Shown in pieces: positions 14,309-19,643 of a stretch of DNA of 64,000 bases. This DNA comes from Polaribacter sp. L3A8 (GTDB taxonomy: Bacteria; Bacteroidota; Bacteroidia; Flavobacteriales; Flavobacteriaceae). Within the stretch, counting starts at the first letter, position 1; each line of letters begins with the position of its first letter. The notes under the pieces are model-generated. The model had not been told where the DNA came from, ran no database searches, and saw nothing but the letters and a program-made list of their open reading frames with translations. A program made the translations under genes and the position numbers. The DNA lies in NCBI RefSeq assembly GCF_009796785.1, contig NZ_CP047026.1, positions 1,054,001 through 1,118,000 of the forward strand, in the 5' to 3' direction.

Positions 14309-14431
14309 TTACTTTAAAAATCCTTCACCTTTCAATTCATTCAATTCCTTTTCGTTAAAATGGTCTAAAATTAAATTCATTTTATCCTTATTCGCTTTTT
14401 TGTTATAAACCCAACCATATAATTTTCTCAT
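14309..14431 (-). CDS. Short frame, probably the displaced C-terminus of the helicase-associated-domain gene
   Basis: 40 codons from the ATG at 14431. It begins inside the end of the preceding gene in another frame. Its sequence (KLYGWVYNKKANKDKMNLIL) looks like the W-rich end of a helicase-associated repeat, and one base removed from the A9 tract at 14433-14441 joins it to the larger frame to give about 205 residues. I read it as the original C-terminus of that gene, not an independent gene; translation from its own ATG is still possible. Confidence 0.4.
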   Translation of the reverse strand: MRKLYGWVYNKKANKDKMNLILDHFNEKELNELKGEGFLK

Positions 14432-14927
14432 ATTTTTTTTTATAATCAAACCATTTTCCAGTTGGATTTAATTTTTCATTATATCTAAAATTTTTCCACT
14501 TTTTAATTTTATCAATTGTTGTTTCAGGTTTTTCCCATTTCCTGATGTCGCCAAATTTTATTTCCCAAACACTATTTAGTTTCTTTCTATTTTGTTCTTT
14601 TACTAATTCCTTTTTGGGTAAAATATAAGCATTGAATCTAGTAATATATTTCTGTTTATTCGGTTTTTTATCTGTTGAAAGTTGCAATGTAAACTTCTCT
14701 AAATAATCCTCAGGGTTTTTACTGTGCATTTTAAAATTGACTCCTAAGCTTTCAATTTTTCTAATTAATTCAAGATTTTGTTTTCTTTTAGCTGATACTA
14801 AAAAAGTTCCTAAATTTTTATTATTGTATTTAAAACGATGGTTTACTTGAATTTCAACATTTTCATTAATTGCATTTTCCAATAATACAAGCCATTCATT
14901 TTCCTTTTGTTTTCTTTTGGATTCCAT
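14403..14927 (-). CDS. Helicase-associated-domain-like protein, probably frameshifted near its end
   Basis: 174 residues, basic and tryptophan-rich. Residues about 10-65 match the pattern of the helicase-associated (HA) domain: W, then a LGTFL segment, a KRK stretch and a LGVNF end. HA domains usually sit after a helicase core, but none is present here. The stop at 14403 follows an A9 tract; deleting one A extends the protein in register with the short frame at 14309-14431. It opens the accessory stretch after ndk. Function unknown; DNA binding is a guess from the domain. Confidence 0.55.
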   Translation of the reverse strand: MESKRKQKENEWLVLLENAINENVEIQVNHRFKYNNKNLGTFLVSAKRKQNLELIRKIESLGVNFKMHSKNPEDYLEKFTLQLSTDKKPNKQKYITRFNAYILPKKELVKEQNRKKLNSVWEIKFGDIRKWEKPETTIDKIKKWKNFRYNEKLNPTGKWFDYKKKYEKIIWLGL

Positions 14928-14994: not shown

Positions 14995-15004
14995 CCCCCC
15001 CCCC
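14995..15004. repeat. C10 homopolymer tract
   Basis: Ten consecutive C in a strongly AT-rich, non-coding gap (14928-15138) between the HA-domain gene and the subtilisin cluster. Such a tract is prone to slippage and stands out in this genome. Confidence 0.8.
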
Positions 15005-15138: not shown

Positions 15139-15336
15139 TCACACACTAAAATCGTTCTTTTCTTCTTCAAAACTTTCAAACTCTATAAAATCTGAGAGTT
15201 GTATTTCTTTTTCAGTTTTAAATTTTATTACTCGTAGTTTTGGGTAGTATTTTAAAATTGTTAAATCTCGTTCTATTAAAGACTTTTTTATTTTACCGTA
15301 TGTAATTTCTGATTTTAAGATTGCAAAGTAAATCAT
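15139..15336 (-). CDS. Small protein resembling a stand-alone subtilisin propeptide/inhibitor
   Basis: 65 residues, no signal peptide. It begins MIYFAILKS and has PKLRVIKFKTEKEI followed by an acidic FIEFESFEEEKN tail. The beta-alpha-beta-like pattern and the ending resemble inhibitor I9 propeptides, which fold subtilisins and block their active site. It starts 5 bases after the stop of a subtilisin gene on the same strand, so a regulator of that protease is the natural reading. This is inference from pattern and position; similarity is weak. Confidence 0.5.
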   Translation of the reverse strand: MIYFAILKSEITYGKIKKSLIERDLTILKYYPKLRVIKFKTEKEIQLSDFIEFESFEEEKNDFSV

Positions 15337-15341
15337 AACTA

Positions 15342-16598
15342 TTATAGTATCTGTATTAAACCATTTCCAATATCTCTATATTTTGAACTTGCAACTGGTT
15401 TTGCATAATTTTCCAAAATCTCCCAGATTTCTTTTGCAGACATAGTAGGAAATTTCTCCATATACAAAGCTGCCAAACCAGTAACATGAGGAGTAGCCAT
15501 ACTTGTTCCGTTCATCATTTTATAAGGTGTAGAATGACTTATCTTTTTAGGGTAGCTACTATAAACACCAACACCTGGGGCACAGACATTAATATTACCT
15601 CCATTTGCAGCATTGATTCCTCCATTAGAAAATGAAGCAATATTCATTTGACTATCAATTGCTGCAACAGCCATAAAAGAGTTAGAATTTGCAGGTGCAG
15701 AAACAGGTTTCGGTAATAAGGGTCTTTTGCTATCGTTTCCTGCAGCTGCAATAAGCAAACAATTTTGCTCTAAAGCTTTATTCCCTATAGATTCAAATAA
15801 AGGAGAAGGCATTTCATTAATACCTACAGGAGAAGCCAAAGAGAGAGAAACTACTTGAAATTTTTTAGCAATTGCCCAATCTATTGCATCAATAATTCCG
15901 GATGTAGTACCTTTTCCGTTTTTAGATAAAACTTTTCCAATTTTTAAATTACAATCTTTTGCAATTCCATAACGTTTGCCATTTTCTAGGCGCAAATTTC
16001 CGGCGGCAACACCAGTACAATGCGTACCGTGCCCAAAAGTATCTACATTCCAATCTTCACCTTCTACAAAAGATTTTCCTTCTATTTCTCTACCTAAAAA
16101 ATCTGGATGAGTAACATCAAAACCAGTGTCTAAAATACAAACATTTATACCTTTTCCAGAAAATTGTGTATGGTCTACTCCAATCGCTTTCAACCCCCAT
16201 TCATAACCTGTAAGTACTTTTTGTGGTAAAGATTTATTTAAAATAAAATCTTCTAATTCTGCTATTTTTACAGAGAAATCTTCTGCTTTTAATTTTAATT
16301 CTTTAAGCAATTCTAATTCTGTTGCTGGAAAAAAACTTCTTTCTTTCTCATAGTAAACAATGGGGCTTTTTTCGTTTTTAATGGAAGCATTTAGCTGATC
16401 TACATCTAAATTATCTACAACCATCACCCCTAAATTTTGATAAAGAACAGCATTTTTTTCATCAATAATATTAAAAGATCTATTGTCTTTAGATAATTCT
16501 TCGGAAGGGAAAAAACTGACAGAAAACTCTTTTTCTACTTTTTTTAATGTAGATTTATCTTGCTTATTAAGCATTACAATATATTTTTCTGTTGCCAT
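15342..16598 (-). CDS. S8 subtilisin-like serine protease without signal peptide
   Basis: 418 residues. The N-terminal ~90 residues resemble an I9 propeptide (MATEKYIVMLNKQDKSTLKK). The catalytic domain has the complete triad: Asp157 (NVCILDTGF), His190 (FGHGTHCTG) and Ser366 (NGTSMATPHV), with Asn288 (AAGNDS) for the oxyanion hole. There is no signal peptide, lipobox or T9SS tail, unlike the secreted S8 enzyme at 33837-35495, so it should act in the cytoplasm. It is fourth in a five-gene cluster and probably acts on, or is released by, its neighbours. Confidence 0.9.
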   Translation of the reverse strand: MATEKYIVMLNKQDKSTLKKVEKEFSVSFFPSEELSKDNRSFNIIDEKNAVLYQNLGVMVVDNLDVDQLNASIKNEKSPIVYYEKERSFFPATELELLKELKLKAEDFSVKIAELEDFILNKSLPQKVLTGYEWGLKAIGVDHTQFSGKGINVCILDTGFDVTHPDFLGREIEGKSFVEGEDWNVDTFGHGTHCTGVAAGNLRLENGKRYGIAKDCNLKIGKVLSKNGKGTTSGIIDAIDWAIAKKFQVVSLSLASPVGINEMPSPLFESIGNKALEQNCLLIAAAGNDSKRPLLPKPVSAPANSNSFMAVAAIDSQMNIASFSNGGINAANGGNINVCAPGVGVYSSYPKKISHSTPYKMMNGTSMATPHVTGLAALYMEKFPTMSAKEIWEILENYAKPVASSKYRDIGNGLIQIL

Positions 16599-16610
16599 TA
16601 TTTTTATTTT

Positions 16611-17192
16611 TTAAGTATTTATTTTTGCCAAATTCTTTTCAAACAAAAGATAAATATCCTCTGCAAGTAATGTCATTCTTAATTTTTTATTTATCCCTGC
16701 AATGCTTTCGTTTTGCTTAATAATCAGATTCCAATACACTTCAATTTTAGTAATGGTATTTAGTTCTGCTATTTTTGCATCATCCATAATATTGTTTTGA
16801 ATAAGCATCAAAATAAGATTAGAAACAAGTTCTTCTCCTTCTTCTAATTTCACTTTTTCTTTATTCATTAACTCCATCAATATTTCAAATATAGATTCTG
16901 TTGCACTAAAAGAAAAACCCCAATACATCTCTCTTCTTCCCGTTTGTATTTTCTCCATTTTAACAGGATTAAATCCTTTTTTTACAGTAAAAACAGAATT
17001 TACTATTTTCAGGATTTCAGATTCTACAGTTGTGTTTCCACTGGTTTGAAAATAAGACAAAAGCGTTTGGGTAAACTCGTCGAAACGACGTTCAAACTCA
17101 AAACTCCTATTTCCTAAAAGAGTCTGAATTTTATTGAAATCTTTTAAGAACCCCTGATAGATTTCTACTTTATGATGAATAAATTCTTGCAT
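16611..17192 (-). CDS. Unknown mainly helical protein of the DUF2589/subtilisin cluster
   Basis: 193 residues, no signal peptide or membrane helix. The sequence is rich in helix-forming, charged residues (KVKLEEGEELVSNLILMLIQ). I recognise no family or catalytic motif. Its ATG shares one base with the stop codon of the gene before it (TAATG), and the subtilisin follows after 12 bases, so translation is coupled in one operon. A structural or adaptor role in the cluster is possible but not shown. Confidence 0.75.
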   Translation of the reverse strand: MQEFIHHKVEIYQGFLKDFNKIQTLLGNRSFEFERRFDEFTQTLLSYFQTSGNTTVESEILKIVNSVFTVKKGFNPVKMEKIQTGRREMYWGFSFSATESIFEILMELMNKEKVKLEEGEELVSNLILMLIQNNIMDDAKIAELNTITKIEVYWNLIIKQNESIAGINKKLRMTLLAEDIYLLFEKNLAKINT

Positions 17193-17890
17193 TAGTCAAA
17201 AGTTATTTCTTCTATTTCTTTACCATCTTTGTCTGTAAAGGTTACAATTCTGATGGCTTCTTCTTCCATTTCTACATGTAGATTAATAATAAGCTTGTCT
17301 TTATCATCAGAACTACCCGTATTTGGATCGATATAGATATTATTAAGTTTAGAATTTACAAGGTTATATCTACTACTTATAGACTCTGAAAGTATTTTTG
17401 CTAAAGCATCATTAGCTTCTTCATTCTCTTCAGCCTGCGGTTTAAAAACTTTTAAATTGAGCGATTTTATTTGCGGAGAGAGATCTACTTTTTTAATTTC
17501 GGTCGTAAAATTCTTTACATACTTTTGGTCTTTGTTTTCCAAACTTTTGAAGAGCGTCTGAAAATCTTTATTTTTTAAATCTTTTTCTTCTAGTAAAGAA
17601 ATTTTTAAATCTTTGGTTTTATTAGACTCAATGATTTTATTATTTACATCCTTTAAAAAAACTTCTGGCTCGTATTTAAAATTGTATTTAGAATCTGCAT
17701 CTATATCTGTAATTTTTACAGGAATATCCATTTTTACAGTTCGCATTGCATATCTAGGCACTTTAAAATATTTTAAATAGCTGTGCTTTGCATATTCTTT
17801 TGCAACAAGTACAGCATTTTCATCTGCTGCTTTTCGTGCCTGAATTATCTCACTATTAAGATAATCCAGGTAATCTGATAATTTGATCAT
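17192..17890 (-). CDS. Unknown protein, possible distant relative of the DUF2589 protein
   Basis: 232 residues, soluble. N-terminal helix (about 1-40), then VPRYAMRTVKMDIPVKITDI at about 53-72, which resembles a segment in the neighbouring DUF2589 protein (VPSFRIETCEIDFNVKL). A charged middle and an acidic C-terminus with DKDGKEIEEITFD follow. I recognise no named family. It lies between the DUF2589 gene (11 bases away) and the helical protein (1-base overlap). Confidence 0.75.
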   Translation of the reverse strand: MIKLSDYLDYLNSEIIQARKAADENAVLVAKEYAKHSYLKYFKVPRYAMRTVKMDIPVKITDIDADSKYNFKYEPEVFLKDVNNKIIESNKTKDLKISLLEEKDLKNKDFQTLFKSLENKDQKYVKNFTTEIKKVDLSPQIKSLNLKVFKPQAEENEEANDALAKILSESISSRYNLVNSKLNNIYIDPNTGSSDDKDKLIINLHVEMEEEAIRIVTFTDKDGKEIEEITFD

Positions 17891-17901
17891 GATTTACATT
17901 T

Positions 17902-18774
17902 TTATTCTGACATTAGTCCTAAAACTTTTGCAAGTCCTGCTGGCATTTCATCATTGGTTGCTTTTACCTTTACTCCCAAAGAATATTCTTTTTCTACTTT
18001 TATACCGGTACTAGAGGTTCTTTTATAAGATACATCTACCTTAAATTTTACCGGACCAAAACCGCCAGAAGCTCCTGCACTTACACCAAACTCACTACCA
18101 ACTTCTTTTGTGTAAGTAGAATTCAATTTTACGTTAAAATCTATTTCACAAGTTTCTATTCTAAAACTAGGCACATTTAAAAGCGCTATAAATGGAACAA
18201 TAATTTCTGTATCTGTAGGGATATTTTTTAGATTAGAGGGGCCTTCTGGTGCTTCACTATCAAAATCTGGGTTTGGCACATTTTTTTTGTATTTAAATTC
18301 TGCCATTCTTAATTTTCTATCATTTCCCTCTCCTTCAAAACCAACTGAATTGATAAAAGAAACAGTACTTACCGAAGCATTAGATTGTGCTTTTACACAA
18401 GCATCTAATGGACCACCAATAATGGTTGCAAAATCTATGCTTCCTAATTCTGCTGCAAAATCTGCGTCTGCTGCTCCTGCTGCATCAAAGGTCATTTCAT
18501 CTTTTTGCATTTGCCCAAAAACACCTGCCATAACTGTTGTAGAGGCATTAGCTAAAGAGTTTTCCCATTTAGCATCGTACTTTTTATTAAATGTAGAAAT
18601 AATATCTAAAATTTCTTTTTTAGTTAACTCTTCTAATTCCGAAGGAGCAATTCCACTTATTTTTTCATAAACAGAAGGTGTTAATAATTGTTCTACACCA
18701 GATAGAATCTCTATTAATTGAGACTTCGTTTTTTTCGATTGATCTTTTTCTAAAATTTCTTTTAAAGTTTTCAT
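17902..18774 (-). CDS. DUF2589-domain protein
   Basis: 290 residues. The N-terminal ~70 residues are helical and charged; an Ala/Gly-rich section follows (about 95-110). From about 110 to 285 it matches the DUF2589 pattern: SIDFATIIGGPLDACVKAQ, STVSFINSVGF, then VPFIALLNVPSFRIETCEID and a basic end typical of beta-sandwich-like repeats. DUF2589 has no established function. It is the first gene of the five-gene cluster and has its own -7 box, so it leads the operon. No membrane segment or signal peptide. Confidence 0.82.
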   Translation of the reverse strand: MKTLKEILEKDQSKKTKSQLIEILSGVEQLLTPSVYEKISGIAPSELEELTKKEILDIISTFNKKYDAKWENSLANASTTVMAGVFGQMQKDEMTFDAAGAADADFAAELGSIDFATIIGGPLDACVKAQSNASVSTVSFINSVGFEGEGNDRKLRMAEFKYKKNVPNPDFDSEAPEGPSNLKNIPTDTEIIVPFIALLNVPSFRIETCEIDFNVKLNSTYTKEVGSEFGVSAGASGGFGPVKFKVDVSYKRTSSTGIKVEKEYSLGVKVKATNDEMPAGLAKVLGLMSE

Positions 18775-19259
18775 AGTTACAGTTTTATTAGTTATACTTT
18801 TTGTGGTAGCAAATGTACAACTAGATATACCCTGACCTTTAAGGGTTATAACTACAATAAGAAGAGGAAAACACCCTTTTTAAAAATTAAAATAAATGAG
18901 CTGAATCTAAGGATATAAACTATCAATAGAAATTACTTAATTATATTAATGCAAAATATTCGGCAATTAAAACGAAAAATCATTAAAGTATTGAGTAGGT
19001 TTATAGTCATGAAGATAAATTCAATAACTTATTTTTTATGATTTTTAATAGTATTTAACAAGAGCCTTTAATGGATATATAATAAAAAGTGTTAGAGATT
19101 TCATTTTTAAACAACAAAAAAGGCAATAAAAAACACAGAGTATAATTAATTCTTTTTTACCCACTGAGTTGAAAATCATTTTAATCTGTGGTTTCTTTTA
19201 ACCTATTTAACGTCACCAAAAATAATTACTTATGACACCACACTAATAAAGTTATAAAA
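18775..19259. other. Gap upstream of the DUF2589 operon
   Basis: About 485 bases between the divergently oriented end of the DUF721 gene and the DUF2589 gene. AT-rich with no open frame worth naming. The only signal recognised is the minus-strand -7 box at 18810-18817. Confidence 0.5.
18810..18817 (-). promoter_or_regulatory. -7 box TACATTTG for the DUF2589 operon
   Basis: Reads TACATTTG on the minus strand, 36 bases upstream of the DUF2589 gene ATG. No clear -33 TTTG. Confidence 0.5.
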
Positions 19260-19556: not shown

Positions 19557-19566
19557 TACTGTTTTA

Positions 19567-19606
19567 GATTGTTGGATTGTTGGGTTGTTGGATTGTTGGA
19601 TTGTTG
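19567..19606. repeat. 8-bp tandem repeat GATTGTTG, five copies
   Basis: Five copies in a row, the third with GG for GA, continuing into a partial GATA. It lies in the short gap between recF and the DUF721 gene. Confidence 0.9.
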
Positions 19607-19643
19607 GATATTTTATACTTATTACTGTGAAACTATAGAAAAT

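Follow-up and report, generated by a model that had tools for sequence, protein, structure and literature searches.

What might a bacterium do with a subtilisin-like protease that appears to remain in the cytoplasm, encoded beside a protein of a domain family, DUF2589, to which Pfam assigns no role? The question is raised by an operon in Polaribacter sp. L3A8, lying on a stretch of 64,000 nucleotides (contig NZ_CP047026.1, positions 1,054,001 to 1,118,000; hereafter the window). As read from open reading frames (ORFs), this minus-strand operon (15139-18774) encodes in succession a DUF2589 protein with an N-terminal extension, proteins of 232 and 193 residues, a protease of family S8, and a protein of 65 residues. 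Pfam names only the DUF2589 and Peptidase_S8 members of the five; the 232-, 193- and 65-residue proteins match no Pfam family above cut-off. A first-pass annotation of this DNA had described five same-strand genes led by a -7 promoter box, and their coordinates, gaps and overlap were recovered as described (Table 1).

A unit of five genes and its recurrence

The five-gene set is a real unit that recurs in unrelated genomes. Contigs of Genome Taxonomy Database (GTDB) genomes, scanned with the 232-residue family of the S8 type, yielded 51 loci, among which other operon types could not turn up because of the query used. Forty-eight contain all five genes in the same order; the remaining three (L004, L007 and L050) are truncated within the operon and do not enter that count. 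Loci with broken frames (L009 and L035 in the S8 gene, L049 in the 232-residue and S8 genes, L052 in the DUF2589 gene) were counted for gene order, as was L048, whose DUF2589 ORF is short in the ORF calls. One of them, the copy in Chryseobacterium sp. E1 (L049, 9100-12539), has several frame breaks that likely reflect sequencing error, since neighbouring genes are fragmented too. The 65-residue gene follows the S8 gene in 48/48 loci, 43 times as recognized by phmmer and five more times by profile. Plain tblastn recovers all five genes in 13 of the 51 loci, missing the 65-residue gene in most Chryseobacterium loci because of its divergence. Hosts include Chryseobacterium, Kaistella, Amniculibacterium, Petrimonas, Paludibacter, Bacteroidales, a metagenome-assembled genome of Saprospiraceae, and others. 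The suggestion that the DUF2589, 232-residue, 193-residue and S8 genes travel together is thus borne out by complete order in every uncut locus, and by co-occurrence of their homologues outside close relatives.

The association is also apparent from the protease side. Among 246 genomes of a related family (that of genome G294), DUF2589 was detected in 55 and the N-terminal domain of the S8 protein in 34; each of the 34 S8 hits has a same-strand DUF2589 match 1297-1391 base pairs (bp) upstream of it, and at 31 places in these genomes DUF2589 occurs without such an S8 gene. A thirty-fifth S8 hit in G1070, weak (E 9e-4) and with two stops, was left out, and the 34 pairs are not independent events, since the genomes are related. 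Evolutionary distances correlate at 0.95 between the S8 and 193-residue proteins and at 0.91 between S8 and DUF2589 (21 chosen sets, without correction for shared ancestry).

Purifying selection acts on each of the five frames, and the 65-residue gene evolves fastest. Median ratios of nonsynonymous to synonymous substitution (dN/dS), from 17 chosen Chryseobacterium loci out of the 51, are 0.05 for DUF2589, 0.05 for the 232-residue, 0.07 for the 193-residue, 0.05 for the S8 and 0.15 for the 65-residue gene, the last reaching 0.75 in single pairs; selection at the codon level points to five genuine genes. The -7 box ahead of the cluster also recurs: when the upstream regions of the window and of 50 loci are compared, 43 of the 51 contain TAnnTTTG within 130 nucleotides of the gene start and 40 of the 51 have it at -35 to -52, while shuffled sequences give 0.11 each; the comparison concerns the -7 element alone.

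The protease, its DUF2589 partner and the shared core

The S8 protein matches Peptidase_S8 (PF00082) with 165.5 bits against a cut-off of 21.8, and subtilisin Carlsberg with E 4.7e-42. Its N-terminus reads MATEKYIVMLNKQDK..., and a region of about 135 residues precedes the catalytic domain, in which the columns of the triad (D157, H190, S366) are invariant in 19/19 aligned S8 proteins. An in-frame TAA stands as the fifth codon upstream of the ATG, with no start codon between, which leaves no room for the alternative exported start considered in the first-pass annotation; by hydropathy, none of 49 S8 sequences has a strongly hydrophobic stretch in its N-terminal 40 residues. Because the start cannot be extended and such a stretch is lacking, the enzyme, so far as can be judged from sequence, stays in the cytoplasm, in agreement with its earlier description as a complete S8 protease without a signal peptide.

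The N-terminal region was likened by eye alone to an I9 pro-domain (YIVxL ... PIVYYEKER). Pfam returns no I9 match for it, and hhalign against a four-sequence I9 profile gives a probability of 10% (P 0.003, 18 columns), so I9 identity finds no significant support and is not claimed. The same applies to the 65-residue protein, which had been called propeptide-like and was thought to help hold the protease inactive as a propeptide or inhibitor: I9 is found by Pfam in 0/20 members, there is no significant relative in the PDB, and hhalign against four I9 sequences gives a probability of 1.4%. Neither the label nor the proposed role is upheld by these searches, and I9 identity is again not claimed.

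The DUF2589 protein matches PF11655 over residues 117-288 with 92.4 bits against a cut-off of 23. The extension of about 105 residues preceding this core sets S8-type DUF2589 proteins apart: in the searched genomes it occurred exclusively alongside S8. Used alone as a query, it was detected in 4 of 395 sampled genomes of the phylum, namely that of the window and three others whose operons are of the S8 type; within the genus (58 genomes, one of them the window's own, 45 of good quality) it was confined to the window's genome, with 0/57 others. Two phenylalanines, F96 and F106, are identical in 48/48 unique sequences. The structure model of the whole protein is poor (predicted local distance difference test, pLDDT, 65.7; predicted template modelling score, pTM, 0.33); in it the extension is helical and residues 88-110, following it, fall below a pLDDT of 50. 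In the alignment, several free-standing DUF2589 proteins (e.g. L074-L076) have their first residue some three positions ahead of F106.

Both middle proteins of the operon extend beyond the S8 type. The 232-residue family comprises 317 proteins at E<=1e-3, itself included, and reaches into the type B and C loci described below; its model (pLDDT 73.6) predicts a long N-terminal helix and long strands. The 193-residue family comprises 43 proteins, itself included, and its profile matches one protein of L074 with E 3.7e-5 and a probability of 71% (E 3e-9 in another search); sequence comparison thereby indicates that the 193-residue protein and the proteins of about 185 residues at other DUF2589 loci are homologous. 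A common origin of the 232-residue protein and DUF2589 was also considered (probability 5.6%, P 0.007, 30 columns); the match is suggestive, and such an origin is not claimed.

DUF2589 itself was found in 28/395 genomes of the phylum sample and in 12/299 of the family (11 over cut-off), besides the 55/246 of the G294 family. Of 71 DUF2589 regions fetched, 68 have a usable core (L118, L120 and L134 do not). Fourteen are of the S8 type (type A), with five genes complete in all; this count and that of the 51 loci overlap, since at least 8 of the 14 look shared. Eighteen (type B) encode an M15 peptidase and a patatin with DUF2589, a 232-like protein and a protein of about 185 residues, the enzymes being identified as Peptidase_M15_4 and Patatin by Pfam on L075 and by similarity in the other loci. 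Fifteen (type C) have the three-gene core without S8 or M15 and patatin, next to CHAP proteins in L076 and L122, PG_binding_1 in L132 and an SpvB/TcdB protein in L081. The remaining 21 (type D) show other arrangements, mostly several DUF2589-like proteins, with a GH25 muramidase in six (confirmed by Pfam in L078, L191 and L205). The G294 family supplied the majority of type A and B loci, so sampling is uneven. On this sequence evidence, DUF2589, the 232-like and the ~185-residue protein form a modular three-gene core, newly described here. The M15 and patatin operons of Chryseobacterium relatives resemble that of the window in having the homologous core in the same order, but their enzymes lie upstream rather than downstream of it, and their DUF2589 protein is without the N-terminal extension.

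Several further observations attach to these loci. By eye, no clear export signal is apparent at the N-terminus of the type B M15 protein, and a viral contig (L091) carries a similar M15-patatin-DUF2589 run. The SpvB/TcdB-domain protein adjoining the core in L081 (2622-6818) is named by Pfam alone. Small Tox-HDC-like proteins occur in L205, L209 and L210 (Pfam on L205 and L210, below cut-off), and two ThsB_TIR proteins (PF08937) lie near the multi-DUF2589 locus L133 (1741-2610).

Table 1. Features of the operon in the window and loci of related DUF2589 arrangements
Feature	Position or loci	Strand	Remark
-7 promoter box TACATTTG	18810-18817	-	43 nucleotides upstream of first gene
DUF2589 protein, 290 residues: N-terminal extension of ~105 residues (18460-18774) and DUF2589 core	17902-18774	-	PF11655
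Linker, residues 88-110, low confidence, F96 and F106 invariant, candidate protease site	18445-18513	-	pLDDT <50
232-residue protein, second core component	17192-17890	-	11-bp gap to DUF2589 gene
193-residue protein, third core component	16611-17192	-	1-base overlap with 232-residue gene
S8 subtilase, 418 residues	15342-16598	-	12-bp gap to 193-residue gene
65-residue protein, last operon gene	15139-15336	-	5-bp gap to S8 gene
Type B loci	L075 10634-12492, L116 8729-10450, L197-L204, L206-L208, L211-L213, L219, L220		
GH25 with zinc-ribbon-like small protein (by eye), multi-DUF2589	L205, L209, L210, L191, L078, L124		

Genomic setting

The operon was probably acquired horizontally, since it is absent from 57 other sampled congeners and a four-gene tree groups it with Kaistella (support 100), away from the same-family clusters L190 and L194. 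Its position had been described as an accessory stretch between ndk and DUF721/recF, and this is corroborated in 15 of 24 congeners: there, ndk and DUF721 are at most about 1.05 kb apart and no DUF2589 match separates them. In the remaining nine, ndk falls outside the stretch viewed (about 1.5 kb or less). At the site, searches for tRNA genes and Rfam families were negative, and the cluster lacks flanking direct repeats of 16 nucleotides or longer. Neighbouring genes, named by eye, vary by lineage: a short-chain dehydrogenase/reductase and an endonuclease/phosphatase-like gene in Chryseobacterium, acetate kinase in Petrimonas, a ClpB-like gene in Kaistella, LigA in L194, and ndk with DUF721/recF in the window. 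Most Chryseobacterium loci share similar chromosomal neighbours, and the five operon genes are the sole genes constant across lineages.

Viral contigs hold one DUF2589 locus (L091) and no member of the 232-residue family, and distant DUF2589 proteins occur in five plasmid records and one phage record. PHROGs returned nothing significant for the DUF2589, 232- and 193-residue proteins of the window or for three core proteins from L074 and L075. Around the operon, 10 consecutive C in AT-rich surroundings (14995-15004), possibly a slippage tract, sit between the cluster and an uncharacterized 174-residue ORF on the minus strand (14403-14927), on the upstream side of the latter; a short tandem repeat with an 8-bp unit (19564-19607) lies between DUF721 and recF. 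A different, multi-DUF2589 locus (L079, 3195-7375) is, by eye, also directly downstream of recF-DUF721, possibly by chance.

Possible action and relation to known systems

How might the five proteins act together? We tentatively propose, as a possibility that we would rate well short of probable, that a latent cytoplasmic subtilisin cuts the DUF2589 extension and so switches the three-protein core. The DUF2589, 232- and 193-residue proteins would form one complex, while the S8 enzyme would be kept latent by its long N-terminal region, perhaps aided by the 65-residue protein. On a trigger, the protease would cut the disordered linker near F96/F106 and remove the extension, leaving a DUF2589 core that would resemble the free-standing forms of other loci; this switch might alter the state of the core, in its assembly or its action on membranes. 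The proposal is consistent with the placement of all 34 S8 hits beside DUF2589, the restriction of the extension to S8-type operons, the invariance of F96 and F106 within a low-confidence linker, the starts of free-standing forms near F106, and the distance correlations.

Several considerations weigh against it. Cleavage of the linker and its trigger are purely proposed, and the extension might just as well serve for docking and stay uncut. Other free-standing DUF2589 forms (L077, L081, L079) begin elsewhere or carry inserts. F106 opens a conserved run (residues 105-125, mean entropy 0.23) reaching into the core, and its invariance may therefore be structural. Finally, the DUF2589 model yields no significant fold match, and because the model is also poor, any action on membranes or assembly is a guess. 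In a broader and decidedly speculative form, which we consider unlikely, the core would be a new molecular platform in Bacteroidota, carrying interchangeable cytoplasmic hydrolases (a subtilisin, an M15 peptidase with a patatin, or an amidase or muramidase) to the envelope or the proteins of the cell on demand; in the S8 branch, the platform would itself be freed by cutting of a dedicated N-terminal domain.

The core may instead be a scaffold (a shell, filament or membrane platform) to which the S8 enzyme belongs as cargo or docked enzyme, the extension serving as docking domain, for controlled proteolysis, perhaps in stress or stationary phase, as with intracellular subtilisins. This doubtful but respectable alternative accounts for a core that stays constant while the enzyme varies (S8, M15 with patatin, CHAP), and a physiological role fits both the very low dN/dS and the similar neighbours of most Chryseobacterium loci; on the other hand, no assembly fold was detected, in models of low to middling confidence.

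The same range of partner enzymes, directed at lipid, wall and protein (Patatin with Peptidase_M15_4 in 18 loci, CHAP in two, PG_binding_1 in one), could also be read as a regulated module for cell damage or lysis, in which the DUF2589 core would enable a cytoplasmic hydrolase to act against the cell or its envelope, by a logic analogous to that of gasdermins and their proteases. GH25 in 6 of the 21 multi-DUF2589 loci and the sub-threshold Tox-HDC-like proteins are in keeping with this; yet about 11 of the 15 type C loci show, by eye, no evident hydrolase beside the core, neither Pfam nor PADLOC gives DUF2589 a match over cut-off to a profile for gasdermins, pores or toxins, and purifying selection is strong. 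We regard such a module as improbable.

Anti-phage defence with the protease as effector, listed as one option in the first-pass annotation, is very unlikely. In its favour, the operon is patchily distributed and seems to have spread horizontally, known defence systems (IetS) employ subtilases, and two ThsB_TIR genes lie near the multi-DUF2589 locus of L133; however, PADLOC matches the S8 protein only to a generic subtilase model and, weakly, to IetS (7e-11), no ATPase or nucleotide sensor was found among the five genes by Pfam and PADLOC, a dN/dS of 0.05 is very low, and Chryseobacterium neighbours are mostly similar. Flanks were scanned over five ORFs (100-1100 residues) on either side of the 51 loci, as 72 representatives, one per homology group. 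PADLOC at 1e-10 matched 10 models, one protein each, several generic and with the locus of origin unassigned: mad3, mad8, PDC-M37B (two models), DolB, a CARF model, TPR, ZorB (two models) and TRIP13. Single matches to ZorB, DolB and mad models would suit defence, but the models are unclustered. Maturation of a peptide or protein product, as by QhpE or PatA-type subtilases, is just as hard to credit. The profile similarity of S8 to models of type VII secretion system (T7SS) mycosin, PatA and QhpE, in all cases below cut-off, would favour it, but no precursor peptide or modification enzyme was recognized in the operon, and nothing beyond the five genes is constant across lineages.

The literature searched, in which subscription journals and preprints were little covered, gave no description of the operon under bacterial gasdermin and subtilisin, intracellular subtilisin propeptides or wider terms, and mentioned DUF2589 in one sentence of one paper among 5.39 million (PMC3949148). 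That passage concerns AF0414-AF0417 of Archaeoglobus fulgidus, which like the operon of the window is a DUF2589-related gene cluster; it is up-regulated on lactate, and the passage speaks neither of a protease nor of a function for the cluster (PMC3949148). The novelty of the operon lies in its composition, with three of five genes matching no family and one a domain of unknown function. Placing DUF2589 in a conserved three-protein core with defined hydrolases provides testable partners for the family and, if the core is indeed a carrier, a new platform for enzymes acting on protein, lipid or cell wall.

Three protease systems invite comparison. Intracellular subtilisin proteases (ISPs) of Bacillus and Planococcus are described, in the account of their pro-peptides, as S8 enzymes without an export signal, inhibited by a short N-terminal pro-peptide with a LIPY/F motif (PMC6220982). 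The window enzyme likewise has no export signal, but it carries about 135 residues before the catalytic domain, shows by eye no LIPY/F motif near its start in 19 aligned S8 proteins, and is encoded alongside DUF2589 partners. IetAS also has an S8 enzyme in an operon, and IetS is matched weakly, as noted above; however, the window's five genes include no recognizable IetA-like ATPase, and the IetS models span 749-795 positions against 418 residues. In the fungal pair HET-Q1/HET-Q2, as outlined in the accounts of that system, a subtilase activates a gasdermin partner by cutting off a short segment at Phe (PMC10989679, PMC12881547). The likeness, an S8 enzyme with a dedicated partner, is an analogy only: the window's DUF2589 protein has no profile-detectable similarity to gasdermin. 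Should the protease prove to switch the core, bacteria would possess a further pairing of a protease with a partner, comparable to that of the fungal gasdermins.

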